Assembly: GCA_963691705.1 (NCBI GenBank)
Contig: OY829545.1
Span: 43,635,475 to 43,699,474, forward strand
Direction: 5' to 3'
Length of the DNA: 64,000 bases
From: Viola odorata
Taxonomy: Eukaryota > Streptophyta > Magnoliopsida > Malpighiales > Violaceae
Shown here: one piece after another, positions 20,815-63,480 of the stretch
Layout: each line of letters starts with the position of its first letter
Numbering within the stretch: the stretch's first letter is position 1
The notes under the pieces: generated by a model
What the model was told of the DNA's origin: nothing
The model's database searches: none
Seen by the model: the letters and a program-made list of their open reading frames with translations, nothing else
Program-made: the position numbers and the translations under genes

Positions 20815-20818
20815 CAAC

Positions 20819-27853: not shown

Positions 27854-27957
27854 CACTATCAAACAAGAATACCATTCCTACTCAAACAGATATCTTGATT
27901 ACTAACCAAATCTGTACCTGTGTATATCACCAAATAATAATTACAGATAATTACAAA
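27854..27957 (+). repeat. Left arm of a split inverted-repeat element
   Basis: CACTATCAAACAAGAATACC onward to the hAT copy. The matching arm is at 59328-59438. In the present map the two arms are direct repeats. If the interval between the hAT copies is turned back, they become an inverted-repeat MITE with the hAT element in its loop. Confidence 0.55.
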
Positions 27958-30900
27958 TAGGGATGGCAATTGGGCGGGTATGGGCGGGTATGGGTATGTT
28001 AAACTGGGTATGGGCGGGTATGGGTAAATATCCAATTCATACCCAAAACTAAATATCCATTATTACCCATACCCAATATGCCCCATACCCAATTGGGTAT
28101 ATAATGGATATCCAATTCACCAAATTATTTTATTTTTTATAATTAATAAAAAAATTATTATTTAGATTCGTTTTCATTAATTATGCTCGTTTTTTACCGT
28201 TTTGGCTCGGTTTTTACCATTTTGGCTCGGTTTTTACCATTTTGGCTCGGTTTTAACCGTTTTGGCTCGGTTTTTACCATTTTGGCTCGGTTTTTACAGT
28301 TTTGGCTCGTTTTTTACCGTTTTGGGTCGTTTTTTACCATTTTGGCTCGGTTTTTACCATTTTGGCTCGGTTTTTACCGTTTTGGCTCGGTTTTTACCAT
28401 TTTGGCTCGTTTTTTACCATTTTAGCTCAAATTTTACCGTTTTGGCTCGGTTTTTAACGTTTTGGCTCATTTTTTACCATTTTTGCTCATTTTTTACCGT
28501 TTTGGCTCAGTTTTTACCATTTTGGCTCGATTTTTACAATTTTGGCTCGTTTTTTACCATTTTGGCTCGGTTTTTACCATTTTGGCTCGTTTTTTACCAT
28601 TTTGGCTCTGTTTTTACCATTTTGGCTCTTTTTTTTTACCATTTTGGCTCATTTTAACTCATTTTTTACCCTTTATAATTTTTCAACTTCAAAATTCAAA
28701 AGAGTCAATGTTTTATCGAATAAAATAATAATCTCCATGAAAATTAAAAAAAGCAAAGATAAATTCTGCCAAATGTAAACCTGTTCAAAATTATCTAAAT
28801 CTTCATAAACATGTGGGCCTGTTTAGTAAGTAACCGTGGAAATAGAGTAAGTAACCGTGGAAATAGCCAAACGCCGGGAGGTAAAAAATAAATTCTGCCA
28901 AATTAAAAATGTACTTGTATTTGGATAATAATAATCTGCATAATTTTCAAGTCAAGAAAATCAAAACTTCAGCCTTCAATTCCAATCAAGAAATTCTACC
29001 AAAGTAACACATTTTCAACAATTTCAACAAGCTGAATATCACCCAAGTCAAGCTGCTCAGCAATCTCATCCAGCTCAGCCTCACATCTATTCATGTACTT
29101 GTATTTGGATCCCAATCCTTAAAAACAGTAGCATATTCCGTTGAAGACATTTTGCCACCATCTAACAGAAGAGAAAAATCAATTGTGTAAAGGACATAGT
29201 TACAAACTAAAATAATTAAAATAATTAATGTGTTAAAAATACCTGCCCATAACCAACTTTGAGAACACATCAATGCCTCCACTGTATCTTCATGTAGTCT
29301 GCTGCGATTAGGACTCAATAATCTACCACCAGCGCTGAAAGATGACTCAGAAGCTACGGTAGAAACAGGAATAGCAAATATATCTCTAGCAATCGCCTGA
29401 AGTGTCGGATATACTATCCCATTCACTTTCCACCAAAGTAGGATAACGGGATAATTCATATGTAACAAGAGTGCCCAAAAGGTCATTAGAGAATTCATGT
29501 AAATAAAGTAATAGATAAAATTTTGGGTATATTACATAAAAAAAAAATTATTTATAAAATATCGATTAAGAATTCATATGCAAAAACAAAAAATCAAAAT
29601 TAATCAAAAACCATAATATTTGTAGGGCTCTTCTGACCAAATAAGTAATTGTCACTGAAGTTGTTTCTTGTTTTTTTTTTATAGATGATATCAATTCAAT
29701 ACCACCGAATCTGTAGCCACCTAGTGAAATTCCTGATTTTGAAAGCAATTATTATTAATTTAATTAAGTAATCTAATTTGCATATAAATGAGCGGATTTT
29801 ATATTAGAAAACTCAAGCATGTCATTACAGCATCATACATAGTGGATAACATGTCAGTGGCAATCATAAACTACACCTTGCTAGCTTTTGCACCCAAAAT
29901 ACATGAAAGACAGGGATGGTGAGGTATTATTGCTAACCTATTTCAACAAGGATTCACATAAACTTGCGAGACATACGAGCAACTAGACCATGTTGTTCAT
30001 TCTACATTTAAGCTGAAGTCTATCTTATTATGATAGGATTCACATGAGATGCTGAAGTCTATCTTATTATGATAGGATATGAAATTTACTATTTCAAGAA
30101 AAATACATGCCAAAGCCACCATCATATGACTGAAAGAACATGTAAGACCTTGTCAGAGAGGGAAACAGAGGGTAAAGGTCTGCCCAGAAGTCTCCATATT
30201 CTTCCACACAAGACTAAAAATGTCAATGAAACTTAACAAAGCCGTCATTTTAATGCTGAAATCAATTAAGTGCAGAAACTTTGGTTGCAATTTTAGACAA
30301 AACTGTGCACACTGCTTAAAAGATTAATTCTCTTATTTTGGCTTCATAAATGACAAATTGCAAGAGCAAATTAGTACCTAATTTTCTTGAAAGATCTCGA
30401 TCGAATAGCTACTAAACCAGGGCTTGTAGTTGCCTATCAGTGCTTTTCTTCTTTCACATTCTTCCACTTTTCCCTATTTTAGCATTAGCAGGCCACTAAA
30501 CTTTGAATTAGAACATCTTCACCTATCAGTGCTTTTCCACTTTTCACTGTAATCCTAACACATGGTTTCTTTTATGTTAGCTAGACCTTGGCGCAACGAT
30601 CTAGGAGGCTATTTAAGATAACCTTATAGAGATGCAGAGTTATATTTGGGATTAATAAAACAGTTGAACCAAGGGAATGGGAGGGGGGACATCTCCTTTG
30701 TTAATTAAACATTTCTGCAGTCATACTTTATTCCATAAGACATAGTTTTGCCCCTTTATTCCAATCAACAAAGAGGAAGAAACATAAAGAAAGGGAAGAG
30801 AAGCATGCATAAAGGAAAGGAAAGGGAATGGCAATCGAAACGACTAAAAATGCCACAATCTCTTAGGTTTCTTGAAAATTCCAAGCCCATAGGTTGAAAC

Positions 30901-31950
30901 AAAGATCTCTACCAGCAGAGGAAATTGCAGAAGGTGTTTAATAACTACAAAACTTCTACAACCATCTGACTGTCTAATATTTGAGACAGCTGATTTACAG
31001 TATGATACCTGACTGAACCGTAGCAGGTGTTTAACACCTATACTAATGCAGCAAAGCAGCAGTCGAGATTGGCATTCTAGTAAAAGAGAAAGGAAGGAAT
31101 ATATCATAAAACATGTGCTAAGCTAAAGGGAAGTAAGATGGGGGCATCAAAACGCGAGGACAACGAGCCCACCTCTGATTTTGATCGCGAACAACACGAA
31201 TAGCATCTATTGCAAGATTAAAATCAATTCAAGCCATTGATCGCAATTTCAACAGTTTTGAATTGCGTACCAATACACACAAACACCAAATTAAAACTTT
31301 TGAGCAATTAATAACAATGAAGAGGAACCCATAATTCATTCACTAGAAATAGTCCAAAATAGCAAAACCAGAGAATCCAACATATGTAAAATAGAAAACA
31401 ATACTTACTTCTGCTGGGCGGGGAGTCTCCAAGTAACTTTTGGACGAGCCCGAGCCCTGCAATTTGATAAGAGTATGTAAAAGATCAACTAAAACCCAGA
31501 ACGAAGAATGTTATCCCGAAATATCTTTATCGATTCTTTTTCTTCCTAAATGATAGACATTGATTATATATTGTTGCTATATTTTACAACTAATTATTAC
31601 CCAGAATAATGCAGCGAGAACAAGAAAAAGTACCTTGTGTGAGTAGTAGAGAGAGGCGACGCCAGAGAGAGGGAGGAGGAGGACGGCGGCCAGGGACAAC
31701 GGCCAGAGAGAGGGAGGAGGAGGACGGCGGCCAGAGAGGGATTGAGGATGGTGCGAAAGGACAAAGGAGGAGGAAATAAAATGTCATATCCATTCGGGTA
31801 TTTTCGGGTATTTTACCCAATGATACCCGAATGGGTATGGGTAATATCCAAACCATACCCAGTCAAATCGGGTATGGTTTGGATATTACCCGGTCAAACA
31901 GCTATGGGTATGGGCGGGTATCCGGGTATGGATACCCGTTGCCATCCCTA
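27958..31950 (-). mobile_element. hAT transposon (Ac-like ends), internally deleted, copy 1
   Basis: Ends TAGGGATGGCAA and TTGCCATCCCTA, with GGGTATGGGCGGGTAT-type subterminal repeats at both ends. The only recognisable coding part is on the minus strand (29498-29091): the hAT C-terminal dimerisation domain (IPVSTVASESSFSAGGRLLS, SRLHEDTVEALMC), split by a short intron. No BED finger or catalytic core is present, so it depends on a transposase from elsewhere. Nearly identical to the inverted copy at 59439-63440. Flanking octamers are ATTACAAA on the left and CTCAAATT on the right, which do not match each other. Confidence 0.92.
28186..28660. repeat. 20-bp tandem array inside hAT copy 1
   Basis: About 24 units of GGTTTTTACCATTTTGGCTC with small changes. 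It creates several long open frames on the plus strand full of Phe-Trp-Leu, which are artefacts of the 20-bp period. The same array is at 62740-63215 in copy 2. Confidence 0.93.
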
Positions 31951-32433
31951 CTCAAATTGCAGTAGAAACTCTTACTTGCAATTTCCATAAGTTTGGTTTC
32001 TTTCTTTCCTTGGATCTGCTGAATTAAAGTAATTAATTAATTGACTTGTTTCATTTAATTAATTAAAGGCTCGATCATAGGATTGATTTATGATAGTAAT
32101 TAATTCATTGGCCTGTTCCATTTAATTAATTACTTCATATGTCGATCTTGAAGAAAAAAAAGAAGAACAAAATTGATCCAAGGTCCCGTGATGTGCAAGA
32201 ACAAATCTAAGACCATGGATTTCTTTGCAAGATCAAATCCCTTGGTACAAGTTCCAAAGAAAATGTACATTCGAGGCAAGTCTTTCCGCAGTCGAAATTG
32301 ATCCGTGACAAATTTGGATCTACAATCAAATATGATTTCAAGTCCAGTCCCCGAAGCAAATTAAGCTCACTCGAAAAGGAAAAAGTTCAAGATTAATTTA
32401 CTTCATCAAGTAAAATAATCTTGAGGGTGCATT
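31951..32433. other. Intergenic, AT-rich, next to inversion breakpoint
   Basis: No gene seen. The first bases are the former upstream neighbour of the gene leader at 63449 onward. From about 32150 the sequence may be internal DNA of the retroelement whose LTR starts at 32434. Confidence 0.4.
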
Positions 32434-33101
32434 TGTAGACATCAAAATTGTTGCCCGTCTTAAAATACTCGGCCTAGTTTATAAAGAGACACGAAGTCCA
32501 TTTGCCAAAATCCATGAAACTTATTTGGTCGAAGCCCACCAGCAAGCTCATATTTAGAGGGATCAAAACTCATCTCATATTTATTAAATAATTTGATTAA
32601 ATGTAAAATTAATTAATATGCAAATTAATTAATAATGTCAGTTACACATTGGACCAATGAGATGAAGACACGTGTCATTTTTCCAATTCCAAAATCACCC
32701 TTATGAGCCTATAAATAGAGGCTTCATCAGAAGGTGAGGAAGAACATTTTTTGGAGAGAAGAAGTGCTGCAAAGATCAAGAGCTAAAACATATCCTCTCC
32801 AAGGAAGAAGGAGAAGGCACAAGCTGATTCAAGGCCGGTTTTCTCTCAGCTACATCAAATCAAATCAAGAAGAAGCCACAAGCTGATTCAAGGTTGGTTT
32901 CTTCTCAAATCAACCGTGGATTACACGCTGATTCAAGGCCAATCCGTCAACCATCCAACTCAAGTTCAAATCTAGATCCGGAGTGAAGACTGATTCATTA
33001 ATCGGAGGAATCAAGAGAAGAAGAACCACTTTTACTCTACATTAAACATTTGTAATTTGACACGTGTAATTTTCTCCTATTTTAGGAAAAATTGTGTGTA
33101 C
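32434..33101 (+). repeat. Probable LTR (solo or 3' LTR) of an unplaced retrotransposon
   Basis: Starts TGTAGACATC and ends TGTGTGTACA, with a strong TATA box CTATAAATAG at 32709-32718 and a leader containing four AAGCTGATTCAAGG-like repeats. The purine-rich CTTGAGGGTGC just before the start could be a degraded polypurine tract. No target duplication was found, so the ends are tentative. Confidence 0.45.
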
Positions 33102-33371
33102 ACGAATAAACAAATTTATACAAAAGAATAAATATAGTATTACTAGATATAATCATCTATTTTCTTGTATTACAAGAAATGGAAGAAACCTTATCAAGAA
33201 AAAAATAATAGGGAAGAAAAAACTTAATAATCTCACCCACTATTTAACATAAACATGTATATATAAGTATAGCTATGCGATATATATAAAGAAAAATAAA
33301 TATATGTTTACCAAAGAAAAAATATACCAAAGCACATACTCGTATGTACAAACGAGTAAAATCTATGAAAA

Positions 33372-33650
33372 AAACCCTATGGATTTTAATGTTTAATTAA
33401 TCACCCCCTGAACTGTTTAGTTGTGCAATGACCCTCCTAAACTTGTATATTTTTGTTTAAAGATAGCTTACGTTTTATGTACTCCGTTAAAAAAAATTAC
33501 CACGTCAGCGAAAAGTTGGCACGTCGTCACTGACATGTCAACTTTTTTTAACGGAATTCATGATAAAAAAATATACAAGTCTAGGAAGGTCATTAAACAA
33601 AAAAAATAGTACGGGGGTAATTAATTAAAATATTAAAATCCAGGAGATTT
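33372..33650. mobile_element. MITE-like inverted-repeat element, about 280 bp
   Basis: The two halves are imperfect reverse complements. GGATTTTAATGTTTAATTAA at 33381 pairs with the stretch ending ATTAAAATCC at 33641, and AAACTTGTATATTTTTGTTT pairs with the opposite arm. The centre carries ACGTCAGC / GTCACTGACATGTC. No coding sequence and no clear target duplication. Confidence 0.55.
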
Positions 33651-35235
33651 TTAACTTTCAAAAATGATAGAAAAACCTAAAAATACGGGCATAAAATATT
33701 TATTCTTTTAAAATTCATGATACTAGTATAATTTATAAAAATATTTCTCAAGAAATAAAGAGTTATACAAATGGTTACGAATATTTAAAGGATTAGATAC
33801 TTAATTTTGGTAATTTTGATAATTGAATATTTTTAAATATCACTTAATTATGCGTCTAAATAGTAGGTAAAAGAGAAAGAGAGTAAAAATTTTAAGAACT
33901 AGAAAAATAAATTAGAAAAGGAGAAATATATTATAAAATGAGAAAGAACTCAATCAATCCATTTTTTTCAGAGAAAGCAGATGCATTATATAAAGAGAAG
34001 AATGTTAGGATCATAAAAAATGACAATACAGAACAACAATTGATTCCACATAAATATAAAAATACGACTTAAGTAATTATTATTATGACTAAAATTAACT
34101 TGATTGATAAATTCACTCAAGTTTCAACCCAATTGTAAATGAATGTATAATAAATAAAAAATATATTTATAATTATTAAATTACAATTTATTATGCAATT
34201 ATTAATTGAATATGAATGTAGTAAGAATAAGAATGGTTATATTTTAAAGAGTTAAAACATTAAAATATGAAATATGATGAGTTAGAATGTAAAATAACTA
34301 AAAAATAACAATCAAAGAAATAGAAAAATGAAAAAATATAACAAATGAAAAACAATGAAATAATTAAAAATATGGGAGAAAAAATATAGTTTACTACTAA
34401 AGTCATGCTACGAAAAAAAAACTTCAAAAATAGACGGTGGTTAGTGATGTTTAATTAAATGGTTAGGTAATTATTATTTTTTAATTCAGCTAATGAAATA
34501 TTTTTAATCTATCTTTATTATGTGTATAAATCATAAGTTAAAAAAAATAAAAAATTATAAAATTGAAGAAAAAAAAAGATGAGAAAATGATTGAAAAATT
34601 AATAATAAATGAACAATGAAAAAGAAAGAATTACATGGAGAGAATGTTCCACAATTTATTGTGTGAAATAACTTATTTTCAACGGAAAAAAGTATACATT
34701 TACCCACACAATTTATTTAACTTACGAAAATACTAATTTATTTTAACTAATTATAAAAATAAAATTTAATTTAATTCGAAAATACTCAATCAATCTATTT
34801 ATAAATTAAAGAGTAATAAAATAAAATTAAAATTCGCGCAAGCCAATACTTTTATTCCTATAGTTTACTAAGGAGAAGGGTATGTTTTTAGTTTAATCTG
34901 AGTAACAAGTTTCCAAAGGTTGAAAAATGAGCGAAATATATTCTGGGTTGTATGTTGACCATGTCTCTGTCTGTCTTCCTCAACTTTGCTCCTACAGTTT
35001 ATTCCCTTTGTCTCCATCCTAATTTCATCTTTTGTTTATGCAATAAATTAATGCAAGAACGATTCTAAAAGCTGATGTCAGTGAACAAGAGTCCGCGTTT
35101 TCCATCTCTCTTATCATTGAGCATAACCTACCTACCTGACCTGTCAATCTAACATTTTCCTCCTTTTTTTTCTTCATCGGTTGTTTCTTTCTTTTTTAGT
35201 CTTCAAGATTCCAATTCTTCTTCCTGTTTAATTTC
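33651..35235. other. Very AT-rich intergenic DNA upstream of the kinase pseudogene
   Basis: No gene, repeat array or transposon end recognised. 35000-35235 would have been the promoter and leader of the kinase gene. Confidence 0.5.
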
Positions 35236-37582
35236 ATGGGGCAGGAAACAAGAAAGCTTTTGGATAAATATGAAGTTTCAGGAATTCTTGGAAGAGGTGG
35301 ATTCTCAGTTGTGAGGAAAGGTATGTTGAAATCTAGTGGAGACAGAAGGCTTGTAGCTATCAAGACATTGAAAAGAGAGGGTTCATCAGGCATGTTGCGA
35401 CCTCGAGGCTTAAGAGGGGAGCAAATGGTTGGTTCTGAGTTTTCCTATGTGGAAACAGGTTTCAATATCAGATGCTTTGCTTACAAATGAAATCTTGGTC
35501 ATAAGAAAGATTGTTGAGCAAGTGTTACCCCATCCTAATGTGATTGATCTTTATGATATGTATGAGGATCAAAACGGGGTCCATCTGGTGCTAGAGCTTT
35601 GTTCCGGTGGGGAGTTGTTTGATAGAATTGTGGCTCGAGCCCAGTACATGGAGCGCGAAGCAGCAACTATTGTTAGGCATGTAAAAGGGTTAGATGTCTT
35701 GCACAAGGCCAATATTGTTCATAGGGACTTGAAGCCTGAAAACTGCCTTTTCTCGAATGAGAAAGATGATTCTATGTTGAAGATCATGCACTTTGGATTG
35801 AGTTCCGTGGAAGAGTTTACCGATCCAGTGGTTGGGTTGTTCGGTTTGATTGATTATGTCTCACCAGAAGCTCTTTCTCAGGGCATATTTAGTACTAGAA
35901 CTGATATGTGGTCCTTGGAGGTAATCAGGGGCGGAGCCTTTAAGAGACCAGGGGGAGCCACTGCCCCTGCAAACTTTTTGATTTTTATTTATTATATACA
36001 TTATTAAATATATATATATGCATTAATAATATAGTTAAATATCTCACTTAAAAAAAATAAAAAACTTCATATCTCTCTGACTCTCTCTCCCGATGCTCCT
36101 CCTCCTCCTCTCCCTCTCCATCTCCAACCCTCCCTTTCAATTCCAATTAAACTCTCAAATCACCACCAAATTCTCTCAAATTTTGAACCCAAACTTCTAA
36201 TCCATCACTAATCAAAACCCAATTTTCAATTTGTATGAATAAACACCAAATCTTACTGAATTTTGAAATCCCCAAATATAAACCATAACCTTCATTTTTC
36301 CAGCTCCTCCTCCTGTATCATCTCCAACACACCACCGCATCCCTAAGACAACCTCCTCCTCCCGCTCCATCACCGGCGCCTTCGTCGCCCCACCACCAAA
36401 CCTTCTCCTTTGACGTCCGACCTCATCTCTCTTGTGGATGCTATAGTATGTTGTCGGTTCTTCATTTAATTTTCATTGTCGGTTCTTCATTTAATTTTTG
36501 TTGTTGGTTCTTGATTTAATTTTCATTATCGGTTCTTGATTTAATTTTTGTTGTTGGTTCTTGATTTAATTTTCATTGTCGGTTCTGATTTAATTTTTAT
36601 TGTTGGTTCTTGATTTAATTTTCATTGTCGGTTGGGTGCCTTATTTTAATTGATTTCACATTCTATGTTTGCTGGATTGGAATTGAAATGGGTAAATCAT
36701 GAAAATTATGAAAATTCACATTGATCACTTGTAAATTGAAATGTGTAAATCATGAAAATTATGTTTGCCACTTTGATCACCTTGTTGATTCACATTTTCG
36801 TAAAATCTCAGATAATGGGCAAGAGAAAACAGCAATACCTCGATTCATTTTTTAAAAAACAAAGCGTTCAATCCAAAGCTAGCACACAATCGGATGTTGA
36901 TGTTCAATCCTAAAGTAGAGAACAATTGTAAAAGGTATGTATATTGTTTGAATTCTAATATATAATTATTGTTTGTTAAGTTTATCTAAATATTTGTTAT
37001 TTAGTGACGGATACAAATACTCTTAAGCATTTTTCTAATTTTTCGTTCAGCTCACTTCCCTTCCCTTTAAAATACCCCAAAAAAAAATTTCGGGGCCGCT
37101 GCCCCCGAACCCCCACACCACTAATCTCGCCCCCTCAAACATTAAGGTCAGGATCCGCCACTGGAGGTAATCATGTATATTCTGCTCTCAGGGTAAGTAA
37201 TCAATTTTCTTTCATGTCTCAATTTGAACTTGTGATCTCTCAATAGTCTTAAGATTTCAGTTTTTATCCAGGTTTTATGCATTTGTGTAACTTTTTAGGT
37301 ATCCCACCTTTCATTGCTCAGTCAAATAGGCAAAAGCAACAAATGATAATGGTTGTATGTTGATACCTTTCATAATTTACAACACAGGATAATTGTCTTC
37401 CGTACTCTTTTTCTTCTTTCTTTTTCTAATTGTTTCTTGGTTTTCATGCAAAAATTGCTCAGTGCGCAAGGTGATTTCAGTTTCTATGAGAAGACTTGAA
37501 GAAAATCACTTCATCAGCCAAACAATTGATCTCTGACCTCCTGCAAGTTGATCCTGAAAGGAGGCCAAGCGCGCAAGATGTA
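35236..37582 (+). pseudogene. CCaMK: Calcium/calmodulin-dependent kinase CCaMK (DMI3-type) pseudogene, truncated
   Basis: In legumes and mycorrhizal plants CCaMK is the nuclear decoder of symbiotic calcium spiking. The start MGQETRKLLDKYEVSGILG, glycine loop GRGGFSVV, VAIK lysine, LVLELCSGGELFDRIVA, HRDLKPEN and SSVEEFTDPVVGLFG match this family. Damage: a one-base frameshift between about 35400 and 35440; the DFG motif reads HFG; a 1.2-kb hAT insertion after TDMWSL at 35926; an extra C in exon 2 (starts about 37299, FIAQ, NRQKQQMIM); and TGA for Trp in exon 3 (FSFYEKT then stop, about 37475-37582). Introns remain at family positions, so this is a decayed gene rather than a cDNA copy. The calmodulin-binding region and EF-hands are absent. 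Confidence 0.88.
35926..37163 (+). mobile_element. Tip100-like hAT deletion derivative inside the CCaMK pseudogene
   Basis: Ends CAGGGGCGGAGCC and GGATCCGCCACTG are inverted repeats with few mismatches, flanked by the perfect 8-bp duplication GAGGTAAT (35918-35925 and 37164-37171). Near 36816 a short frame (MGKRKQQYLDSFFKKQ) resembles the start of Tip100-type transposases, and the rest of the transposase is missing. About seven copies of a repeat of about 30 bp (GGTTCTTGATTTAATTTT) lie at 36450-36650. Confidence 0.88.
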
Positions 37583-39680
37583 ATAATATATAATTCTATG
37601 AAGTTTCAAGTTTCTTATATTATCTTAAACTCCATTTTGCTAACTTCTATTCAATATATATGACAAAGGAAAGGAATGATGTTACCGAGAGATACACGGA
37701 TGGAAACGAGGGAGGAGTTGAGCACAATGAGGAATGCCGCAACACCTTGAATACTTTAAGAACACACAAAAGGAATTAGTATAAGAAGCTCACGAAATAG
37801 TACACAACTCGTTTGCAAGAACGACTTGTATACGATTACACATAAACATCACAAATTACACAATGATGGTTTGCGTTTTACTTGTGAAGATTCAAAGCAC
37901 CATCAAGCTTAGAATTCCACAAGAGGAGTTTAGTGTGAAGAAAGAGTATTCTCACTCTACAAATTCACTCAAAATATCTAAACTAATGAAAATAGTAGCT
38001 AAGTCCGCCTTTCATACTTGAGTTACAAAAGATGGCCTTGTTATGGTTCTTGTCCTTGAACGCGTCCTTTATGTGTGAGGTTATGGCCTTTCTGATGGGC
38101 TTTTTAAGCCCACTTGGATTGGAAAAACCTTGGCTCATGCTAGGCTCTGTCGTATCTTCGAAAGATAGTTGCACGTCTTCATGGGTTGCTAGGGTTTGTG
38201 TGGGTGGCCTCATGGCTTGTTGCGAGGATTTTTCATGGTTTGGCCAACTAGGGCATGAGGCCACCGCTGGCTGCGATACACGTGAGAGGGCTTCATGGCT
38301 TACGCGGGCTTGATGCGAGAGGCTTTCATGCGTTGGCTGTGATAGGCATGAGGCCCGCGAAGGCTACGATAGATGCTAGATGGCTTCATGCATTGGCCGA
38401 CTATGGCATGAGACTTGCGAGAAGTCCTCGTGGCTTATCTGGCCAAAGCATGAGTCTTGGCTCCTATGGCGACGATAGCAACCATTCCAATGGTGATGAT
38501 GGCTACCAACCGGCTAGTGTTGATGATGATGGTTCCTATGGTGTCACTAGCAACCATTCCAATGGTGATGGGAGTTCATCTTGGACGTGTAGTAGTTACC
38601 AATCTCATGGTAATTAAGCATATGAGTCTTTTGGTGACGATGACTATGAGCATGGTATTGATAGTGCGGGCGAATACCAAGATCAAGATGCCGCAAGTGG
38701 TTATGAATATGGAGACTACGAAGGATCTCTAAGTTCTCATGGCTCAAGCTATGGCCTAGGTTCCAATTCCGGTCAAAGCCTTAGCCATGGCCCCAATTCT
38801 AGAAGAACCATCCTCCATACAAGTACACAAGTCCAAAACAATCATGATAGAACCCAAGGCCGAGCACCTACACCTTCTATTCAACAAGGTGGTCCAAGTA
38901 AGCCAAATTAGTTGTTGATTGCGATTTAATTGGAGATAATATGCATGAAACTCTTGTGTTGAAAAAAGAGAATTGTGGACTTGAGGATGATGTGCTTAAT
39001 AATTGTGTTGAGAATGATATGGTTGAGCACCCTATTGGTGAGATGAGTAGAGAGACAATTGAGGGTGAGTGTACCCAAACACTTGGGAAAGAGTTAGGTG
39101 AGTGTAGCTAAACACTTGGGAGTGAGTTGGGTGAGAGCCACCAAACACTTGGGAATGAGTGGGGTGAGTGCCACCAAACACTTGGGAGTGAATCGGGTAA
39201 ATACGTGGGGCTAGATGTGTTTGATGTTTTTGTCAACCCGTTCTTTAAATTTGGAAGGGTTATATTGGGGAGTGAAAAGAGTAAGCGTGCCATTGAGAGT
39301 GGATGCAACCTTGGAAATGAATTGGGTGATCACATTGAGCTAAATATCTTTCAAGGTTTTGACAACCCTTTGTTTGAACTTGAAGATATTAATTGGGAGA
39401 GTGAAAAGAGTGGGGAAAGGGATAGAGAGAATATATTGTATTCTAACATGGATGATCCCTTCTTTTCTATGTTTGATTCTCCTTTGCAGACATTTCCTAT
39501 GGGTTTGGTCAAGGAATTCAGTGCTTATGAGGATCCTTTCCTTTACTACATTCCTAGCCAACATCATACACTTCTAGTGATGTGCCCCTTGCAAGTAATG
39601 TTGAGTTATGTGCGCCCAAGCTAGGACCACAAATTTAAAGCAATGGATTCGAGGACGAATCCTTTCGAAGGAAAAGGTGA
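37583..39680 (+). mobile_element. Degenerate internal region of a Ty3/gypsy-like element
   Basis: Upstream of the LTR at 39681. From 38400 a broken frame rich in Gly, Ser, His and Asp (GSYGVTSNHSNGDGSSSWTC) resembles a gag spacer. After stops and a shift, 39127-39624 reads DNPLFELEDINWESEKSG and short CTQTLG / HQTLG repeats. A short frame at 39643 contains DSRTNPFEGKGDD, which resembles the end of chromovirus pol just before the polypurine tract. No RT or integrase, so probably a deletion derivative. 37583-38000 shows nothing specific. Confidence 0.5.
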
Positions 39681-40516
39681 TGATGCGATCACACATGGCT
39701 TCATTTCAGTGATAAATGAGCACACATTCGGAGGCCAAAAGACATGCCTACAGTCATCAAAAGTAGGCGAGATTCGTGCCAACCCGAGGCCACCCACGTG
39801 GTCGAGCTTTCCCCTCGAAGTGGCTGGACCAACCATGAAGAGTGCACCTGGCAACATACCGCTAGACACTAGAGGCATCTAGTGACATACCGCCAGGAGA
39901 AGACAAATAAATTGTCTTCTGAAGTGAGGCTAGCTACATACCGTTAAGCATCTAACAGTATATCGCCAGAGACATTTTTGGCTTCTAAGAAGAGTGTTTT
40001 CAAGGCCTTTTGTACTTAGTATAAATAGCTTTCTCCTTCATTTTTCTTCCTTAGTTTTTGATGCGTGTTTATTTCTTGAGTTAGAGAGTACTCCTCCTTC
40101 TAAACACCTTGAAATATCCTTGTAAGGATCAAGGTTAGGAGGCTCCTTGATTCATTGCAAGCAAAACTCCTTTTACCTTCAATCTTTAATTAATTGTTCT
40201 TGTTGCAATTGAATAGAACTTTGGGATTATTGTGTTTATTGAATATTATAGATTCCTATGAATGGATGATTGATTATAATATTATTTGAATGTTTTCCTA
40301 TTGATTGATCATTTCCGATTGGATTATTAACCGCAAATCATCTCTTAAATTCCCAGATTTTTGTTCTTCTTCCTTCTCTAAAATCCGTTGTGTTTCTTCT
40401 CTAATCCATCTCCGATTCTTGTGTTTCTTGTTAGAAATTGATTGGGTTTTGTCGGGTAACTCAAGCTAAATCTATTGGCATGATCCGACTCATTAAAATG
40501 AGGCTGGATCGCATCA
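39681..40516 (+). repeat. 3' LTR of a Ty3/gypsy-like element (836 bp)
   Basis: Starts TGATGCGATC and ends GATCGCATCA, so the ends are perfect inverted repeats. TATA box TATAAATAG at 40020-40028. The purine-rich GAAGGAAAAGG directly before it is a likely polypurine tract. Confidence 0.8.
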
Positions 40517-47541: not shown

Positions 47542-47601
47542 AGCAAAAATTACACCAAGACTATAATTTGCTAACGGTATGTCATTAGGCATACCGTTAA
47601 G

Positions 47602-49550: not shown

Positions 49551-49828
49551 TTTTGTTGGGAGAAGCATATCTAGTGTTTTACTGTTTGAAGGGCAAAGTT
49601 TCCACCAAGGGGTGACAGCAAGCGGGAGTCCATATCTGAGAATATGGTACAACGCAGAGAAAGGAATTCAACAGATCCATAGAAGATATACAACCTAACT
49701 TCTGTATCAAATTTATGACACCGAAAACTCAGACATGGCTAGCAAACAATTACAAAAATAAAAATATAAAATGGTTGTCTTTTTTAGACGGGGGTGATAC
49801 ATAAATTATAAACTGCAGGGAGAATTGG
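49551..49828. repeat. 278-bp direct repeat, copy A
   Basis: Identical by eye to 50138-50415. The two copies bracket the last exon of the oxidosqualene cyclase. Confidence 0.95.
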
Positions 49829-49968
49829 GAAATTTGTTTCATTCGTTATTTTTCTTGCTTGTTATTCCATAGTCAGTACCAAGCTCACATACATGGCATG
49901 AATGACAACACACAACGTAATCTTTACAAGCTGAACAACTCATCTCGGAGCCCTCCTGCCACTACAAG

Positions 49969-52900: not shown

Positions 52901-55900
52901 TTTTATAATGATAAACTCACTTCTCTTTAGATTTCCTTTACCAACTTAGACCAATAATTAAGAAATATAAATCCAAGTCACAAATTTTAGTCCAAAAATT
53001 TGCTGAAAATTTTCCATTTGCAAAATGTTGCTGTGAAACAGATTTTGGAAAATTTTTTAACAAAATTTTCCAAATTTTTTTTTTCTCCTAAATGGTTTGT
53101 GCTTTTAAATTTAGACATGAATATATTTAGAATATTTATATTTGATCTTTAACAAATTTAAAATAGGCTACTATTTAGTTTATTATTTTTTTTTCAAAAA
53201 AATATTAGCATTGTTTTTTAATTAAAATAAAATTGATTTAACAAAAATAGTATATTTTGTTTTTCAAAAAAATAAAAGTTGTTGTTTTGCAAAAACTGAA
53301 AATTTTACAAAACAGAAAATTTTGCAAAACAGAAATTTTGCGTTGTGAAACGCAGCCTTAGCCTCCAATTTCTTTAAGAATCAGACCCACCAGGAAGGCA
53401 TTATAATTAAGAGCGTAATTGAAACACACAAAAGATAAGATGACCTTGTTTTGACATGATAGGTAACTCTCTCCCCAACCACCTCTTGCAAGTTCTTTGG
53501 ACAGCAAATAATCGCAAGCTTTGCGAATGCTATTGCAATTATCAAATGTCCTACCAGTAGCTACCAAACCCTTTATTCCAAACCAACCTCCATAAGTGAA
53601 GCATACTCCCCAGGATCCATACCTGTTGAGAACAAGCATCGAATTCAATCACTATTTTAAAATATTATTCAAAAGAAGAGGCATTCAAAATATATATAGA
53701 ACCGTAACAAGGGTTCATTATATGCATGAGCAATGAACATTCGTATAGCAGGTGAGCAACAAGCATTCAAATAACTTAATTGAATTACAAGAATGAGGTC
53801 CGAACCCACCAAGAACCATCTGCAGCTTGAATCATTTCAATGAACAATGCAGCTTTAGAAATGCAACAATCTATGTCTTGCTTCCTGTAGCCAGGATACA
53901 AGTTCCTGAATGATGCCAATGCTTGGATTGCTGCTGAAGTGCACTCTACATATCTAAGTGGCAATACCACAAAAATCAAATTAGAATTTCATAAACATAA
54001 TAAAATACACATAAAAAGGAAAAATGGTCTAGAAATGATAACTGAAGCCTGATTAAAATCGTACGGGTAATCAATGACAATATCGCCAAAAGTTTCTGCA
54101 GGGTTGATTAACTGAAATAAAAAGAAAGGTTTATAGTCAGATAAAATGCTACCAGGAGTCAGACAGCTCAGGTTTGAAGGCCAGAACTTCATAACTAGTG
54201 CAGGATAATGATAACATGAAGCAAGGTTTAGGAATACACATTGTTCACCATCAATAAAAATCATGTTGCACATCAATTGTTGGGGAAAAAATTGTTAAGT
54301 AAATTGAATAATGGGGAAAAAAGAAGAAAAAACAACCTCATCAAAAAATGACCGAAAAAATTGTAACCAAGCATGATGCTTGTGATACTTTTAAAAGATC
54401 CAAAATATAATGGTCATCTAATTGTAGGGTTTCTCCCTCAGTTATGACCTCACAACAATTTGAGACAACCTCATAAAACCTTCTTTTATGCTGAAACATG
54501 TAGGTTTTCACTTGCACAACTTAGATGCAAACTACACAATTAAAGGTACAAACTCTGTTAGATAACCTGTTTCCACATACCCTTAATTAAAGAAAAATGA
54601 CCCACAGGCTATTACAAAGTTCATCCGCACGAAAAAATAGTGCCGGACTAAATTAAAACCACGTAACTCAATTCCCCATGGAATATTCAAAACCTCGAAG
54701 CAAACATGAAGCTCAAAAGAATCCAGGAAGGGCTCGAGCAGGTATTTACCTCCAACCATCGGTAGGACCTTGTCAATTCATATGTAGCAAAGCTACCATC
54801 CGCATTCTGAAGAGGTCCCAGACATGGAAAATGTTAGGAATCACTTGAAAACTATATCACCACCCACTATTAATAATAGGAATGTTATAGTATATGTTCA
54901 TATTGTCTGGCCACTACCTAGTCACATGGGCTTTTGAGTTAGGTAGTAATTAAATGTTCACCTCGGGTGTAAAATTTCCATTCCATTTCAATGTAAAATC
55001 CAAACATCTAGATCAATGCAATCACAAATCCTTACCTGTAAGGAAAGGGTTATATTTACTGCATCATAAAGCCGATCAACACCTAGTGGTTTCCCAACTG
55101 CTTCTGTAGGAAGTTTTGATAACAATAAAACAGCCTGTAAAAGGAAATTAATATTACTGATAAAAGTCATGACAATATGAAATCTCATAAAGTTTGATTA
55201 TTTTTAACCTTCAGCCCTTCTGCAGTGCAATCAGAGATGGGCCATCCATGATCTGCAGTTGAGAATGGCCAGGCACCTTTCGAAATGTGGCGATACCAAA
55301 AATTTAGATCACCGGGACAATTTTCAGTCACCTTCAAACAAAGAATAAATACTTGAGTAAGGACAAAAATTGGCGAATAAAGGGGACAATAATTGGCACA
55401 TGATGGAGTGCTCTCTAAGCAGGAACCTGTGAATCTTTAATGTAATCATGTGCTTTTCTTAAAGTTGAACCATATTTTTCATCAAGGTTAGTTGAAAGGA
55501 TTGCTTGAACAGCAAAAGCAGTATCCCATAATTGACTTCCGTTATAACCCTGTAGATTTCAATACAATTTCATCAGATAAGAATTTTGTGTCTCCACATG
55601 GTGTGCCGTTTGTTATTACCACACAAAAAAGTTCCATGGTTGGCACCTCCAAGAAATTGAGAGTCAATGTATTATAGTTACTATAGAAAAGATAAATGTT
55701 ATTTATGGACCTGCATTTTCATGCCATCTTCAGCAACCCACAAATAATCAAAGATCCTTGGAAGATGCAGTCTGAATGCGTCAGAGTGTCGGTCTTCCAC
55801 CCAACAACAAAGCATGTTCAATACCTGAATGGACACATGACTCAAAGCTCCATTGAATGAAAATTGACCTTCCGATGAAAACACAATAACATCAACAGAA

Positions 55901-58900
55901 ATACAGAAGCCATATGATTCTATTCTTAACAGAAATTACGCTTTGAATAGATATTCAAATTTCTGTTCTGTTTTTCTATCTAAGAAGAAAGGAAGATCAT
56001 GATCAAAATTCTTCCATGCATACCTTGTTGACTGGCCCTACGCAAACTCATCGAGTATTCTCATCTTCATAACTGATATTTTCTATCTAAGAAGAAAGGA
56101 AGATCATTAAAATTCTTCCATGCATACCTTGTTGACTGGCCCTATGCAAATGTATTGAGTATTCTCATCTTCATAATGGATATGCTGCATCACGGTGTCC
56201 AAAGCCTTCTCCCTCAACCTTTTAGCTGGCCAGCTTGTAAATATAGGCTCATATGCATAGTGAAGAGATGCCCAGAGAACATCTTGAACCAGCGGATGTG
56301 GGTAGTAAAGATCTTCCTAATGAAAGGTGGCCACATGAAAATAAAGTTATAATTCAAGTCTCAAACAAAAGAAAATGTTCTCCTTGAACTGCGAAGGCAT
56401 TTTTTTATTGTAAGATTGCAACCCCAAATACACAATTCCAAACAAAAAAACTTCTAACATATAATGGATCTAGTTGGTTTTTATTTATTTATAATACATC
56501 AATTGCTAAAATCAGCAGCATGGTCAAATATTATAGTTTCCGTACATTATTAACAGCATGTACTTTGAACATTCATTAGGCGCTCATCTACCAATTCATA
56601 AGCCAGATCAATATTCTGCCAGCATCTCCACACATTTTTCAATTCCAACATACAGGCATGAAAACCTGAACATAGACGAGTATTATAAGCGGCTTGATGA
56701 TATTTTCATTTCACCATTACTAAATACAATAACTGTGCTCTTCCAATTCATAAGCACAAAAACCTTAACCGTCAGCTCACTACATTGCACCTAGTTTTTC
56801 AAAAGAAATTTCACCGACTGAAAAAGAAAAAAGACAGGCAATAGAAAAGAAAAGACTTGCTCCCAATTAATGGAGAAAGCTCATGCACATTATATGATCC
56901 TGATTGTAGCTACGTGCAGTAAAGATATAAAACAATGATAAAGTTAGTTTAGAATATAGGTTTTGCGGGGGAACATCATTTAAAAAACCTTAGCGCATGT
57001 ACTGCGGGCTTTGTTCCAATCTACTTCATGATATGGAACTATATATATTTCCTTTCTCAGAGATGTAATTAAAGGTGTGATGGGACCAACAAATCTCTTC
57101 CCGTATAGGTATGACATTGGTAAATACACCATCCGACAATGGCACCACATCCGTCCTACAGAGGGAATTTTACATTATTTGTGAGTAGTGTAAAGCCAGT
57201 AGAAGTCGACAGCACTAGATCAGAATCAAACAAAATTAAAGGCAAATTGTATCCTAACTATCTAGAAAAGGTGTTGAGACAAGTTTTACATCAACCATAG
57301 GACAAGATGGAGCACATCTTTAAACAGAAAGAAAGCTAAAGATAACAGAAAAAAGGGTTTAGAAAAAACAAGCACTAAGAATGGAAAAAAGAAAATAAAT
57401 AAGAGAAAATAGAAATTAATTTTAGAATGGATTAAAATTAAAAAGGAAATAAAGACCCCTAAAATTTAAAACTAGTGATTCTGCCAAATTGAGATAAAAA
57501 GAGAGAACAATGTAGAGACAAACCTACACTTCTACATTGTTATACAACTGACTCCTTGCAAATGCTTTTATTTTCCCAAACCTGAGACTTTAATCATTAC
57601 ATCAAACAAAGAACCATTTACTAACAAATTTTTCCATTTGAAAAATTCTGTCAAACTTTTTGGTTAATTTAACAATGTGAAGGGAAAAATATCCGTTGAG
57701 TGGCTGAACATGTGTAGAAAACATAATAAGCAAGTATGTACATATAGGGACCTGGGTGCACAGGAAGAACGTAAGGGCAAAGCCATACTTCTGGTGGTAA
57801 TGGATTATTTCCAGACCATTCATACACTCCAAGTACCTGTCACAATCAAACATCAATCAAGTCAGAACAAATATCTTCAGAGTGCGTTGTTTCCAGAACT
57901 CATATAACAAAATAAAGGCAAGATTTCATACTGAGAGCCACATTTTCCCCCATGAAGTAATTGTGGTGGCACCACCATGGTCCAAGATCCACTGACGCCC
58001 CTTTTCCACTGCCCCATCTCCACACTCAGCTACTTCACCAAGCAACCTCAAGGAGACATAGTTTAGAGTAGTACCAAACATGGTGCTCGGGCCTTCAATA
58101 TGAAGACCCCAACCCCCATCTCTATTCTGTAAAAGAATGGGAAAAAATATACAGTAAAAATAGTGAATACAGAATTCCCTATACATGTTGGTCATGAACC
58201 TAATGATACCTGAGCAGAAGCAAGTTCCCTATGGCCTTGCAAAAATAAACTACTTTGGAGTATCTTATAATTCAAGCACTTGGGTTGGATGGAGGTATTC
58301 GACGAGTGAAACAGGAAACTTGACACTGAAATTGGGAATATGAAAAGGTAGGATAAAACATTGACCTGATGATTGTAAAGATATCTGCACATCTCAGTCT
58401 GGTGTTCTTTAGACAGCACAGCATTCAGGGTTCCTGTGATGGACAGAGTGATGACCTGTTGCAGTCTCCATGAGCAATACGGAAGTAGTTGAATGGAAAT
58501 GAAAGGCAGCAAAAGCAAAAGGTAATTAAGATTAAAGGAGCAGGTGGGGATTACCAAACCAGGGAGCAGAAACATAGGACCCCCATAATCACCAGGCCAG
58601 TGACCATCGGGCGCCTGGATGGTTGAATAAAACTCAAGTGCCCGGTGCAAGGTAGTTGTGACGGCCTCCTCTGTGGCATCTTCGCTCTCTTGAACATGTA
58701 CTTGAGCCAAAGTCGGGCATTGGTCGCCGTGCTGGTCCCTATGCTCTTTAGCAAACTACAGTTAATGATTAATTTATTCACCGATTAAGTATCCAGAATA
58801 AGGCATCTCCAGTGTTTGGATGACTACAAGAAAGAGATTAGTGATTCATTTGACTGATTTAAGGGAAATAAGAAAGAAGGTGAGATGTGAAACAGACCTG

Positions 58901-59110
58901 AAACCTCATGAGAAGATCAGCGCTGTGCTTTTTGTGGAAGCGGTGGTCTCGAAAAGCAATGCGAGCGTTTTCAACCTCCAAAAGTTCTTCGGGGGAGCCG
59001 GCGTCGGGACAGAAGTGCCATACTTGGCGGCCAACATGGTTGTTGACGCTGCTCAGCTCACTGCCACCGACCCCGACTACGCTCTCTGCTCCATTCTTCA
59101 GCTTCCACAT
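49969..59110 (-). CDS. Cycloartenol-synthase-type oxidosqualene cyclase, two exons missing
   Basis: Such enzymes cyclise 2,3-oxidosqualene to cycloartenol, the plant sterol precursor, on the ER membrane. Exons in gene order: 59110-58898, 58755-58555, 58455-58366, 58126-57932, 57836-57752, 57155-56989, 56316-56128, 55824-55711, 55549-55427, 55331-55209, 55134-55036, 54806-54750, 54111-54065, 53953-53810, 53622-53445, 50082-49969. All junctions are GT/AG in matching phase. They join to 712 codons without a stop, against about 760 in the family. [23 protein letters not shown] and DCTAE are present. The Tyr, His and Ile positions of cycloartenol synthases (Tyr410, His477, Ile481 in Arabidopsis CAS1) are kept in GYNGSQ and [12 protein letters not shown], so it is CAS-like, not beta-amyrin-synthase-like. 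About 55 residues between SYLSCQNK and the last exon (NTGWA and PLHRAA region) were not found, so activity is doubtful. Confidence 0.88.
50069..50100. repeat. 16-bp tandem duplication at the last-exon acceptor
   Basis: ACACCCGTAATCTCCT occurs twice in a row. On the gene strand this doubles the AG|GAGATTACGGGTGT acceptor, creating two candidate splice sites 16 bp apart. Only the one at 50082 keeps the frame from exon 15. Confidence 0.85.
50138..50415. repeat. 278-bp direct repeat, copy B
   Basis: Identical by eye to 49551-49828, at 587 bp distance. Confidence 0.95.
50416..51704. other. Non-coding DNA where two cyclase exons would be expected
   Basis: GT-rich stretch (50450-50680), then unrelated DNA. 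I looked for the two missing exons on the minus strand and did not find them. A hairpin with perfect 18-bp arms (TACGTGGCATGACACGTC, 50972-50989 and 51012-51029) lies here. Confidence 0.5.
51705..53357. mobile_element. PIF/Harbinger-like element in the cyclase intron, 1653 bp
   Basis: Terminal inverted repeats GGGGCTGTTTCACAACG and, from the right, GGCTGCGTTTCACAACG, with TTA on both sides (51702-51704, 53358-53360). Target site and GGGC-TGTTT-like ends fit the Harbinger/Tourist group. No transposase. A direct repeat of about 150 bp (about 52425-52575 and 52990-53155) brackets unrelated DNA, so the element is composite. Confidence 0.8.
55973..56185. repeat. Tandem duplication of the cyclase exon 7 end
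   Basis: Two units of about 107 bp (55973-56079 and 56080-56185). Each contains the end of exon 7, its donor site and some intron. The downstream copy (55973-56079, in gene direction) has TGA in the coding frame, so it is a dead pseudo-exon. Confidence 0.85.
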
Positions 59111-59327
59111 CTCCCTGCCAGTAACAATATAGCGTTTTGAATCTTTTGATTCCGGTTCTAATTTCTATGTTATTTTGTTTTTCTTTTGTCATTACCTGTA
59201 CTTATCAAGCAAAACCACCATTCCTACTCAAACACATGTGTTGATTACTAAATCAAATCATCCACCAAATAATTAATTAGATATTATTAGTAAATAAATA
59301 TTATTTGTAATTATCTATAATTATGAT
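59111..59327 (-). promoter_or_regulatory. Remaining upstream region of the cyclase gene
   Basis: The start codon is at 59110 and the hAT copy begins at 59439, so only about 330 bp of own upstream DNA remain. Part of that is a direct-repeat element (59206-59320) related to 59328-59438. No clear TATA box. Anything further upstream was moved to the left side of hAT copy 1 by the inversion. Confidence 0.4.
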
Positions 59328-59438
59328 CACTATCAAGCAAGAACGTCATTCCTACTCAAATACATGTCTTGGCTACTAAACCAAATTTGCACCTGTTAAT
59401 TAATTAGATATTATTAGTAGATAAATATCATTTGTAAT
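59328..59438 (-). repeat. Right arm of the split inverted-repeat element
   Basis: Partner of 27854-27957 (CACTATCAAGCAAGAAC... CATTCCTACTCAAA... GCACCTG). A further related copy is at 59206-59320. Confidence 0.55.
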
Positions 59439-62400
59439 TAGGGATGGCAACGGGTATCCATACCCGGATACCCGCCCATACCCATAGTTGTTTGACCGGG
59501 TAATATCCAAACCATACCCGATTTGACTGGGTATGGTTTGGATATTACCCATACCCATTCGGGTATCATTGGGTAAAATACCCGAAAATACCCGAAAATA
59601 CCCGAATGGATATGACATTTTATTTCCTCCTCCTTTGTCCTTTCGCACCATCCTCAATCCCTCTCTGGCCGCCGTCCTCCTCCTCCCTCTCTCTGGCCGT
59701 TGTCCCTGGCCGCCGTCCTCCTCCTCCCTCTCTCTGGCGTCGCCTCTCTCTACTACTCACACAAGGTACTTTTTCTTGTTCTCGCTGCATTATTCTGGGT
59801 AATAATTAGTTGTAAAATATAGCAACAATATATAATCAATGTCTATCATTTAGGAAGAAAAAGAATCGATAAAGATATTTCGGGATAACATTCTTCGTTC
59901 TGGGTTTTAGTTGATCTTTTACATACTCTTATCAAATTGCAGGGCTCGGGCTCGTCCAAAAGTTACTTGGAGACTCCCCGCCCAGCAGAAGTAAGTATTG
60001 TTTTCTATTTTACATATGTTGGATTCTCTGGTTTTGCTATTTTGGACTATTTCTAGTGAATGAATTATGGGTTCCTCTTCATTGTTATTAATTGCTCAAA
60101 AGTTTTAATTTGGTGTTTGTGTGTATTGGTACGCAATTCAAAACTGTTGAAATTGCGATCAATGGCTTGAATTGATTTTAATCTTGCAATAGATGCTATT
60201 CGTGTTGTTCGCGATCAAAATCAGAGGTGGGCTCGTTGTCCTCGCGTTTTGATGCCCCCATCTTACTTCCCTTTAGCTTAGCACATGTTTTATGATATAT
60301 TCCTTCCTTTCTCTTTTACTAGAATGCCAATCTCGACTGCTGCTTTGCTGCATTAGTATAGGTGTTAAACACCTGCTACGGTTCAGTCAGGTATCATACT
60401 GTAAATCAGCTGTCTCAAATATTAGACAGTCAGATGGTTGTAGAAGTTTTGTAGTTATTAAACACCTTCTGCAATTTCCTCTGCTGGTAGAGATCTTTGT
60501 TTCAACCTATGGGCTTGGAATTTTCAAGAAACCTAAGAGATTGTGGCATTTTTAGTCGTTTCGATTGCCATTCCCTTTCCTTTCCTTTATGCATGCTTCT
60601 CTTCCCTTTCTTTATGTTTCTTCCTCTTTGTTGATTGGAATAAAGGGGCAAAACTATGTCTTATGGAATAAAGTATGACTGCAGAAATGTTTAATTAACA
60701 AAGGAGATGTCCCCCCTCCCATTCCCTTGGTTCAACTGTTTTATTAATCCCAAATATAACTCTGCATCTCTATAAGGTTATCTTAAATAGCCTCCTAGAT
60801 CGTTGCGCCAAGGTCTAGCTAACATAAAAGAAACCATGTGTTAGGATTACAGTGAAAAGTGGAAAAGCACTGATAGGTGAAGATGTTCTAATTCAAAGTT
60901 TAGTGGCCTGCTAATGCTAAAATAGGGAAAAGTGGAAGAATGTGAAAGAAGAAAAGCACTGATAGGCAACTACAAGCCCTGGTTTAGTAGCTATTCGATC
61001 GAGATCTTTCAAGAAAATTAGGTACTAATTTGCTCTTGCAATTTGTCATTTATGAAGCCAAAATAAGAGAATTAATCTTTTAAGCAGTGTGCACAGTTTT
61101 GTCTAAAATTGCAACCAAAGTTTCTGCACTTAATTGATTTCAGCATTAAAATGACGGCTTTGTTAAGTTTCATTGACATTTTTAGTCTTGTGTGGAAGAA
61201 TATGGAGACTTCTGGGCAGACCTTTACCCTCTGTTTCCCTCTCTGACAAGGTCTTACATGTTCTTTCAGTCATATGATGGTGGCTTTGGCATGTATTTTT
61301 CTTGAAATAGTAAATTTCATATCCTATCATAATAAGATAGACTTCAGCATCTCATGTGAATCCTATCATAATAAGATAGACTTCAGCTTAAATGTAGAAT
61401 GAACAACATGGTCTAGTTGCTCGTATGTCTCGCAAGTTTATGTGAATCCTTGTTGAAATAGGTTAGCAATAATACCTCACCATCCCTGTCTTTCATGTAT
61501 TTTGGGTGCAAAAGCTAGCAAGGTGTAGTTTATGATTGCCACTGACATGTTATCCACTATGTATGATGCTGTAATGACATGCTTGAGTTTTCTAATATAA
61601 AATCCGCTCATTTATATGCAAATTAGATTACTTAATTAAATTAATAATAATTGCTTTCAAAATCAGGAATTTCACTAGGTGGCTACAGATTCGGTGGTAT
61701 TGAATTGATATCATCTATAAAAAAAAAACAAGAAACAACTTCAGTGACAATTACTTATTTGGTCAGAAGAGCCCTACAAATATTATGGTTTTTGATTAAT
61801 TTTGATTTTTTGTTTTTGCATATGAATTCTTAATCGATATTTTATAAATAATTTTTTTTTATGTAATATACCCAAAATTTTATCTATTACTTTATTTACA
61901 TGAATTCTCTAATGACCTTTTGGGCACTCTTGTTACATATGAATTATCCCGTTATCCTACTTTGGTGGAAAGTGAATGGGATAGTATATCCGACACTTCA
62001 GGCGATTGCTAGAGATATATTTGCTATTCCTGTTTCTACCGTAGCTTCTGAGTCATCTTTCAGCGCTGGTGGTAGATTATTGAGTCCTAATCGCAGCAGA
62101 CTACATGAAGATACAGTGGAGGCATTGATGTGTTCTCAAAGTTGGTTATGGGCAGGTATTTTTAACACATTAATTATTTTAATTATTTTAGTTTGTAACT
62201 ATGTCCTTTACACAATTGATTTTTCTCTTCTGTTAGATGGTGGCAAAATGTCTTCAACGGAATATGCTACTGTTTTTAAGGATTGGGATCCAAATACAAG
62301 TACATGAATAGATGTGAGGCTGAGCTGGATGAGATTGCTGAGCAGCTTGACTTGGGTGATATTCAGCTTGTTGAAATTGTTGAAAATGTGTTACTTTGGT

Positions 62401-63440
62401 AGAATTTCTTGATTGGAATTGAAGGCTGAAGTTTTGATTTTCTTGACTTGAAAATTATGCAGATTATTATTATCCAAATACAAGTACATTTTTAATTTGG
62501 CAGAATTTATTTTTTACCTCCCGGCGTTTGGCTATTTCCACGGTTACTTACTCTATTTCCACGGTTACTTACTAAACAGGCCCACATGTTTATGAGGATT
62601 TAGATAATTTTGAACAGGTTTACATTTGGCAGAATTTATCTTTGCTTTTTTTAATTTTCATGGAGATTATTATTTTATTCGATAAAACATTGACTCTTTT
62701 GAATTTTGAAGTTGAAAAATTATAAAGGGTAAAAAATGAGTTAAAATGAGCCAAAATGGTAAAAAAAAAGAGCCAAAATGGTAAAAACAGAGCCAAAATG
62801 GTAAAAAACGAGCCAAAATGGTAAAAACCGAGCCAAAATGGTAAAAAACGAGCCAAAATTGTAAAAATCGAGCCAAAATGGTAAAAACCGAGCCAAAACG
62901 GTAAAAAATGAGCAAAAATGGTAAAAAATGAGCCAAAACGTTAAAAACCGAGCCAAAACGGTAAAAATTGAGCTAAAATGGTAAAAAACGAGCCAAAATG
63001 GTAAAAACCGAGCCAAAACGGTAAAAACCGAGCCAAAATGGTAAAAACCGAGCCAAAATGGTAAAAAACGACCCAAAACGGTAAAAAACGACCCAAAACT
63101 GTAAAAACCGAGCCAAAATGGTAAAAACCGAGCCAAAACGGTTAAAACCGAGCCAAAATGGTAAAAACCGAGCCAAAATGGTAAAAACCGAGCCAAAACG
63201 GTAAAAAACGAGCATAATTAATGAAAACGAATCTAAATAATAATTTTTTTATTAATTATAAAAAATAAAATAATTTGGTGAATTGGATATCCATTATATA
63301 CCCAATTGGGTATGGGGCATATTGGGTATGGGTAATAATGGATATTTAGTTTTGGGTATGAATTGGATATTTACCCATACCCGCCCATACCCAGTTTAAC
63401 ATACCCATACCCGCCCATACCCGCCCAATTGCCATCCCTA
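59439..63440 (+). mobile_element. hAT transposon (Ac-like ends), internally deleted, copy 2
   Basis: Inverted copy of 27958-31950, differing by a few substitutions and one extra TACCCGAAAA unit. A first exon with donor at about 59764, a small second exon 59942-59990, and the hAT dimerisation domain exon (61900 onward, intron about 62157-62235, last exon to 62307) are on the plus strand. Flanking octamers are TTTGTAAT (59431-59438) and AATTTGAG (63441-63448). They do not match each other, but are the reverse complements of the left and right octamers of copy 1. Confidence 0.92.
62740..63215. repeat. 20-bp tandem array inside hAT copy 2
   Basis: About 24 units of GAGCCAAAATGGTAAAAACC, the reverse complement of the array in copy 1. 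Confidence 0.93.
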
Positions 63441-63480
63441 AATTTGAGTAGGAAATCCTTATGGCAAACTACCATAATTA

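Follow-up and report, generated by a model that had tools for sequence, protein, structure and literature searches.

The closest described systems to the locus reported here, an apparently inverted segment lying between two copies of a hAT transposon in Viola odorata, are the Galileo inversion 2z3 of Drosophila buzzatii, the Ac/fAc inversions of maize and hybrid element insertion by P elements. For Galileo, the evidence for recombination set out in the relevant part of PMC2775673 consists of exchanged target duplications, a single copy of the target in the un-inverted order and chimeric transposon copies, and that part also warns that hybrid element insertion on sister chromatids can mimic the same picture with identical copies. 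For the maize inversions, the corresponding passages of PMC8225341 describe recombination between inverted copies as leaving exchanged, usually non-identical duplications, and reversed-ends transposition as creating a new shared duplication with loss of the fragment between the elements. The window analysed here is a stretch of 64,000 nucleotides (nt), bases 43635475–43699474 of contig C9 in a genome of 699 Mb and 26 contigs. The features on which the comparison rests are as follows:

27950..27957, + strand: octamer ATTACAAA, left of copy 1; first half of the site-1 target duplication
27958..31950, − strand: hAT copy 1, 3993 base pairs (bp), a deletion derivative
31951..31958, + strand: octamer CTCAAATT, right of copy 1; site-2 duplication, inverted
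31951..59438, strand not given: segment read as inverted, 27,488 bp, on the basis of the right-join and left-join matches
59431..59438, + strand: octamer TTTGTAAT, left of copy 2; site-1 duplication, inverted
59439..63440, + strand: hAT copy 2, 4002 bp, in the orientation opposite to copy 1
63441..63448, + strand: octamer AATTTGAG, right of copy 2; second half of the site-2 duplication

The two copies align in inverted orientation (27958–31950 against 63440–59439) over 4003 columns at 99.6%, with 11 gap positions, and differ at only seven places, namely by five substitutions, one 1-bp insertion/deletion (indel) and one 10-bp indel. Homologous, oppositely oriented copies at both inversion breakpoints are what ectopic recombination requires. 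The element termini read TAGGGATGG.../...CCATCCCTA, and each octamer directly adjoins such an end. As the original prediction had claimed, all four octamers are present, and the left octamer of one copy is the exact reverse complement of the left octamer of the other (ATTACAAA and TTTGTAAT), as is right of right (CTCAAATT and AATTTGAG). Its judgement that a joint chance match is extremely unlikely was also borne out: exact reverse complements occurred at a frequency of 3e-5 in 2 million random octamer-pair draws from the window, corresponding to ca. 9e-10 for both pairs, or ca. 4e-9 with other pairings allowed. The target duplications are exchanged in two pairs and none is newly made, in agreement with ectopic recombination. 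Nor can the octamer pattern be a coincidence, because copies of the repeats with empty sites exist elsewhere in the genome.

The locus resembles Galileo 2z3, as described in PMC2775673, in having opposite DNA transposon copies at the breakpoints, exchanged duplications and a single un-inverted target copy. According to the same description, Galileo belongs to the P superfamily, makes 7-bp duplications and has chimeric copies, whereas the Viola pair has no chimeric sites; moreover, that study set inverted against non-inverted chromosomes, whereas the comparison here is with paralogous empty sites only. Among the three Galileo marks, the exchanged duplications are present, the single target copy is seen through paralogs, and the chimeric copies are uninformative. 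The maize Ac/fAc reversed-ends inversions, in the account of them in PMC8225341, share hAT ends at both breakpoints, a size of tens of kb and 8-bp duplications, but they carry one new shared duplication and have lost the inter-element fragment, in contrast to the two exchanged duplications found here. P-element hybrid element insertion resembles the locus in that a single step would leave exchanged duplications around identical copies, although the passages that treat it (PMC2775673, PMC3744419) name P elements and not hAT elements. The Viola locus would be a plant example of an already known inversion type.

With the inversion undone, two empty target sites are expected, and both were searched for in the same genome. 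For the right site (site 2), the 256-nt query comprised the complement of 31951 onward, a single AATTTGAG (query bases 110–117) and then 63449 onward; 40 of the 82 first-look candidates were scored, yielding 42 match rows. Thirty-five of these rows ran end to end (start at or before query base 5, end at or after base 246), at 73%–89%. The other seven comprised two that began at base 59 or 83 and crossed the octamer, the two halves of the window itself, two fragments of 38 nt and one copy on C8. This C8 copy (C8:52207780) begins four bases to the right of the site-2 octamer; the preceding bases contained no octamer, the 100 bases inspected contained no hAT end, and we take its start as a different break. 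Five of the 35 spanning copies were aligned, and each had one octamer exactly at the join (AATTTGAG in four, ACTTTGAG in one), with identities over ungapped columns of 91%–94% to the left of the octamer and 93%–96% to the right. Two of these five, taken with a longer flank, gave single gapped BLAST alignments across the join; the alignments extend 889 and 955 nt leftward and, respectively, 188 and 161 nt rightward. The repeats that host the two sites within the window are:

59203..59327, − strand: repeat unit within the sequence flanking copy 2 on the left; it aligns to the un-inverted left join through the octamer (85% over 125 columns)
63441..64000, + strand: right part of the interspersed repeat hosting the site-2 element; in two copies the one-piece match extends no further than about 63636, and the complement of 31951 onward forms the left part of this repeat

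As a control in the present order, the closure of copy 2 (59438 into 63449) was searched in the same way, with 40 of 84 candidates scored and 41 rows obtained, three of them the window's own. None of the 38 non-own rows went more than 15 nt into the left flank of copy 2; seven reached 9–15 nt, the octamer included. Because repeat copies cross the un-inverted joins and none of the scored rows closes copy 2 in the present order, the present order is, as judged from these paralogs, well supported as the derived one. The present order was also considered as ancestral and was rejected (0/38 rows for the closure of copy 2 vs. 35/42 for the un-inverted right join). The ancestral order of the inversion can therefore be read from a single genome, since element-free copies of the repeats at both insertion sites occur elsewhere in it.

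For the left site (site 1), the query led from 27957 into the complement of 59430, with the octamer at query bases 97–104, and all 11 candidates were scored. Seven copies of the repeat unit crossed this join, six at places elsewhere and the window's own unit at 59203–59327; the copy-2 side was covered wholly or nearly in these paralogs. Over the stretch AATTACAGATAATTACAAATGATATTTATCTAC of the join, the closest copy, at C9:18.80 Mb, has AATTACAGATAATTATAAATGATATTTATCTAC, a single mismatch. The own unit aligned to the un-inverted join with a score of 159, compared with 35 to the present-order closure. In contrast, the longer copy at C9:18.80 Mb discriminated weakly (258 for the un-inverted join vs. 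230 for the present-order join), a gap that is small because the left repeat is palindromic. The left-join loci were chosen mostly by the un-inverted join, so the missing present-order rows there do not serve as a control. Compared in direct orientation, the two left flanks resemble each other over 69 nt (score 76, against no more than 41 among 60 shuffles); with the segment turned back, this similarity forms an inverted repeat on either side of the insertion. In the inverted sense the two left flanks score 38 vs. 28 in shuffles, which corresponds to the 59203–59327 unit. The left flank of copy 1 also scored slightly above shuffles against the complement of its own right flank (37 vs. 31). A single target copy was thus found for each un-inverted join, strongly on the right and less so on the left, in paralogs rather than orthologs. 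The original prediction had expected 27957 to continue into the complement of 59438, and 31951 (complement) into 63441, and both continuations occur as real target sequences in repeat copies of this genome.

These findings give good support to an inversion, in this assembly, of the segment 31951–59438 relative to its order at insertion, and we favour, with confidence somewhat better than even, homologous recombination between the near-identical inverted hAT copies as the cause. A deletion-derivative hAT element would have occupied site 1 (target ATTACAAA), and local transposition into the interspersed repeat at site 2 (target AATTTGAG) would have produced a second copy facing the opposite way, or the two events may have taken place in the reverse order. 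A crossover in the 4-kb homology would then have flipped the interval, leaving each copy with one octamer per site. On this account, two insertions would have preceded the flip, the exchange would have been homologous, and the flip would have happened in the plant rather than in the assembler. Recombination is favoured because ordinary steps suffice, a local hop followed by a crossover. The original prediction had held that the swapped octamers prove the inversion. The inversion itself gained support from the repeat copies that cross the un-inverted joins and from the failure of the present-order control at copy 2, whereas "prove" was too strong, since hybrid element insertion or a flip by the assembler would give the same octamers.

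The two copies belong to a family with longer relatives, and the features that bear on their history are:

28091..28735: array of 20-bp tandem repeats in copy 1, mirrored in copy 2 at 62663–63327
29091..29531, − strand: transposase remnant in copy 1, with the hAT dimerisation domain PF05699 (E = 2.2e-25)
29441..29445: junction of a 2,039-bp deletion, with a 5-nt overlap (GGATA), common to copies 1 and 2
61867..62307: transposase remnant in copy 2, the same as in copy 1

The dimerisation domain in the coding remnant of copy 1 and the 8-bp target duplications of family members both place the elements in the hAT superfamily. A 2,276-bp element query gave four whole-query matches (40 of 94 candidates scored), which were copies 1 and 2 and relatives on C1 and C7. 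These relatives, of 6072 and 6071 bp respectively, are longer by 2,039 bp at one point. In the C1 relative, open frames of 218 and 472 amino acids lie in and across the extra stretch, and the longer of the two appears, judged by eye, to contain the same dimerisation sequence, consistent with a full-length relative. Relative to both long relatives, the pair shares one base at 28579 and another in the right part (alignment column 2074), and its tandem array is 40 bp shorter in both copies. Three substitutions (28431, 28509 and 28802) are private to copy 1, and two substitutions and both indels are private to copy 2. At substitution rates of 7e-9 to 1.3e-8 per site per year, the five substitutions correspond to a rough 50,000–90,000 years between the copies; gene conversion would turn this figure into a lower bound on the age of the insertions.

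Several observations weigh against recombination between two separate insertions, or limit the evidence for it. First, a 28-nt pattern across the deletion junction, searched with at most one mismatch, has exactly two occurrences genome-wide, one in each copy of this pair; as the junction is confined to the pair, an event involving a single element is the simpler explanation. Second, every difference between copies 1 and 2 is private to one of them in comparison with the C1 and C7 relatives, so no chimeric signal is found and the Galileo-type test for recombination yields nothing, a test that is powerless if the parent copies were identical. Third, octamers that fail to match are not confined to the window. 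Among six relatives, on which this base rate rests, the octamers match exactly in those on C1 and C4 and at 7/8 positions in that on C2; one at C9:51.5 Mb is ambiguous at one base, the C8 relative is without a matching left end, and the C7 copy (C7:31711299–31717369, 6,071 bp) has the unmatched octamers AGTGGTAC/ACTTTGAC. Octamer mismatch alone is therefore not diagnostic. The C7 copy may carry the mark of another rearrangement; no exact swap partner for its octamers was found, and the four one-mismatch matches from one search, against none from the other, were taken as chance. Fourth, a stretch of ca. 19 nt, ca. 27 nt to the left of the octamer, is present in all five aligned site-2 copies and has no counterpart in the window; these copies are therefore relatives of the target, and none is an exact pre-insertion copy. 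Fifth, the left-join paralogs cover only 5–16 nt of the sequence specific to the copy-1 side, which is why the left site is more weakly supported than the right. Finally, the genome-wide present-order control covers the closure of copy 2 only.

The octamers alone cannot separate recombination from hybrid element insertion in one step. In the latter, the 5′ end of a hAT element on one sister chromatid and the 3′ end of the same element on the other would have been inserted together 27.5 kb away on the same arm, inverting the interval and leaving a copy at each end. This would make a second pre-existing insertion unnecessary, and the pair-only deletion junction, the shared bases, the 40-bp shortfall of the array and the presence of private differences only would all be expected. 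Exchanged duplications with identical copies are also what the warning in PMC2775673 leads one to predict. Nevertheless, identical copies are equally expected from a recent local hop before recombination. In the Ac/Ds system, usually one sister copy alone is competent to transpose, which would disfavour the mixing of ends. We regard such an insertion as possible, at perhaps one chance in a few, and the process is named for P elements; for Ac/Ds, the passages concerned in PMC3744419 name sister-chromatid transposition with directly oriented ends and reversed-ends transposition.

An assembly error is a less probable explanation, and we consider it unlikely. The segment would then be un-inverted in the plant, and the assembler would have crossed between the two 4-kb inverted copies. 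The paralog tests give the ancestral order and are silent on whether the flip happened in the plant, and the seven differences between the copies would leave little to tell them apart. On the other side stand the contiguity of the assembly (26 contigs for 699 Mb, with no N in the window) and 10,090 exact genome-wide matches to six telomere units; the matches listed, the first ones, all lie close to one end of C1. Long telomere arrays are thereby suggested, which in turn suggests a long-read assembly whose reads would span 4 kb.

The alternative offered in the original prediction, an aberrant transposition using the ends of two separate elements in reversed or another arrangement, fared poorly. 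Such transposition is known to give inversions with hAT ends at both breakpoints, as the passages of PMC8225341 report; however, such an event would be expected to leave a single octamer newly in common and to lose the DNA between the two elements, whereas both pairs are shared here and only one octamer stands where the right target site is closed, making this route very improbable. A further reading, in which the two elements inserted independently in the present order and their octamers agree by chance or through related target repeats, is negligible in probability: the left flanks are indeed related by a directly oriented repeat, as scored above, but the chance of both matches (ca. 4e-9), the right-join matches and the present-order control at copy 2 refute this combination in practice.

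The segment read as inverted carries a predicted gene near copy 2:

53358..59164, − strand: predicted spliced oxidosqualene-cyclase-like (triterpene-cyclase-like) gene, with a candidate exon structure from open frames and Pfam

SQHop_cyclase_N and SQHop_cyclase_C were recognised above the Pfam cut-off in two of its nine pieces, with a third piece below it, and the remaining exons are presumed to belong to the gene by their motifs. The predicted ATG lies at 59110, 328 bp from copy 2. Before the flip, the upstream side of the gene would have faced the site-1 flank beyond the hAT copy; after it, the new upstream context would be the site-2 repeat behind copy 2, that is, behind 4 kb of hAT sequence.

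The same segment contains a protein-kinase fragment (PF00069; 35414–36007) that is probably a pseudogene, a fragment of a retrotransposon integrase core on the − strand (40583–41305), a tandem repeat with a 50-bp unit (44719–44968) and a 292-bp direct repeat (49551–49842 and 50138–50429; 98%–99% identical, with starts 587 bp apart). To the left of copy 1, a further pair of repeats was found:

3123..7312 and 20816..25059: direct repeats of ca. 4.2 kb, 98% alike and 17.7 kb apart; retrotransposon frames (RNase H, integrase) lie between them

Given its layout, the stretch 3123–25059 is probably a long terminal repeat (LTR) retrotransposon with long LTRs.

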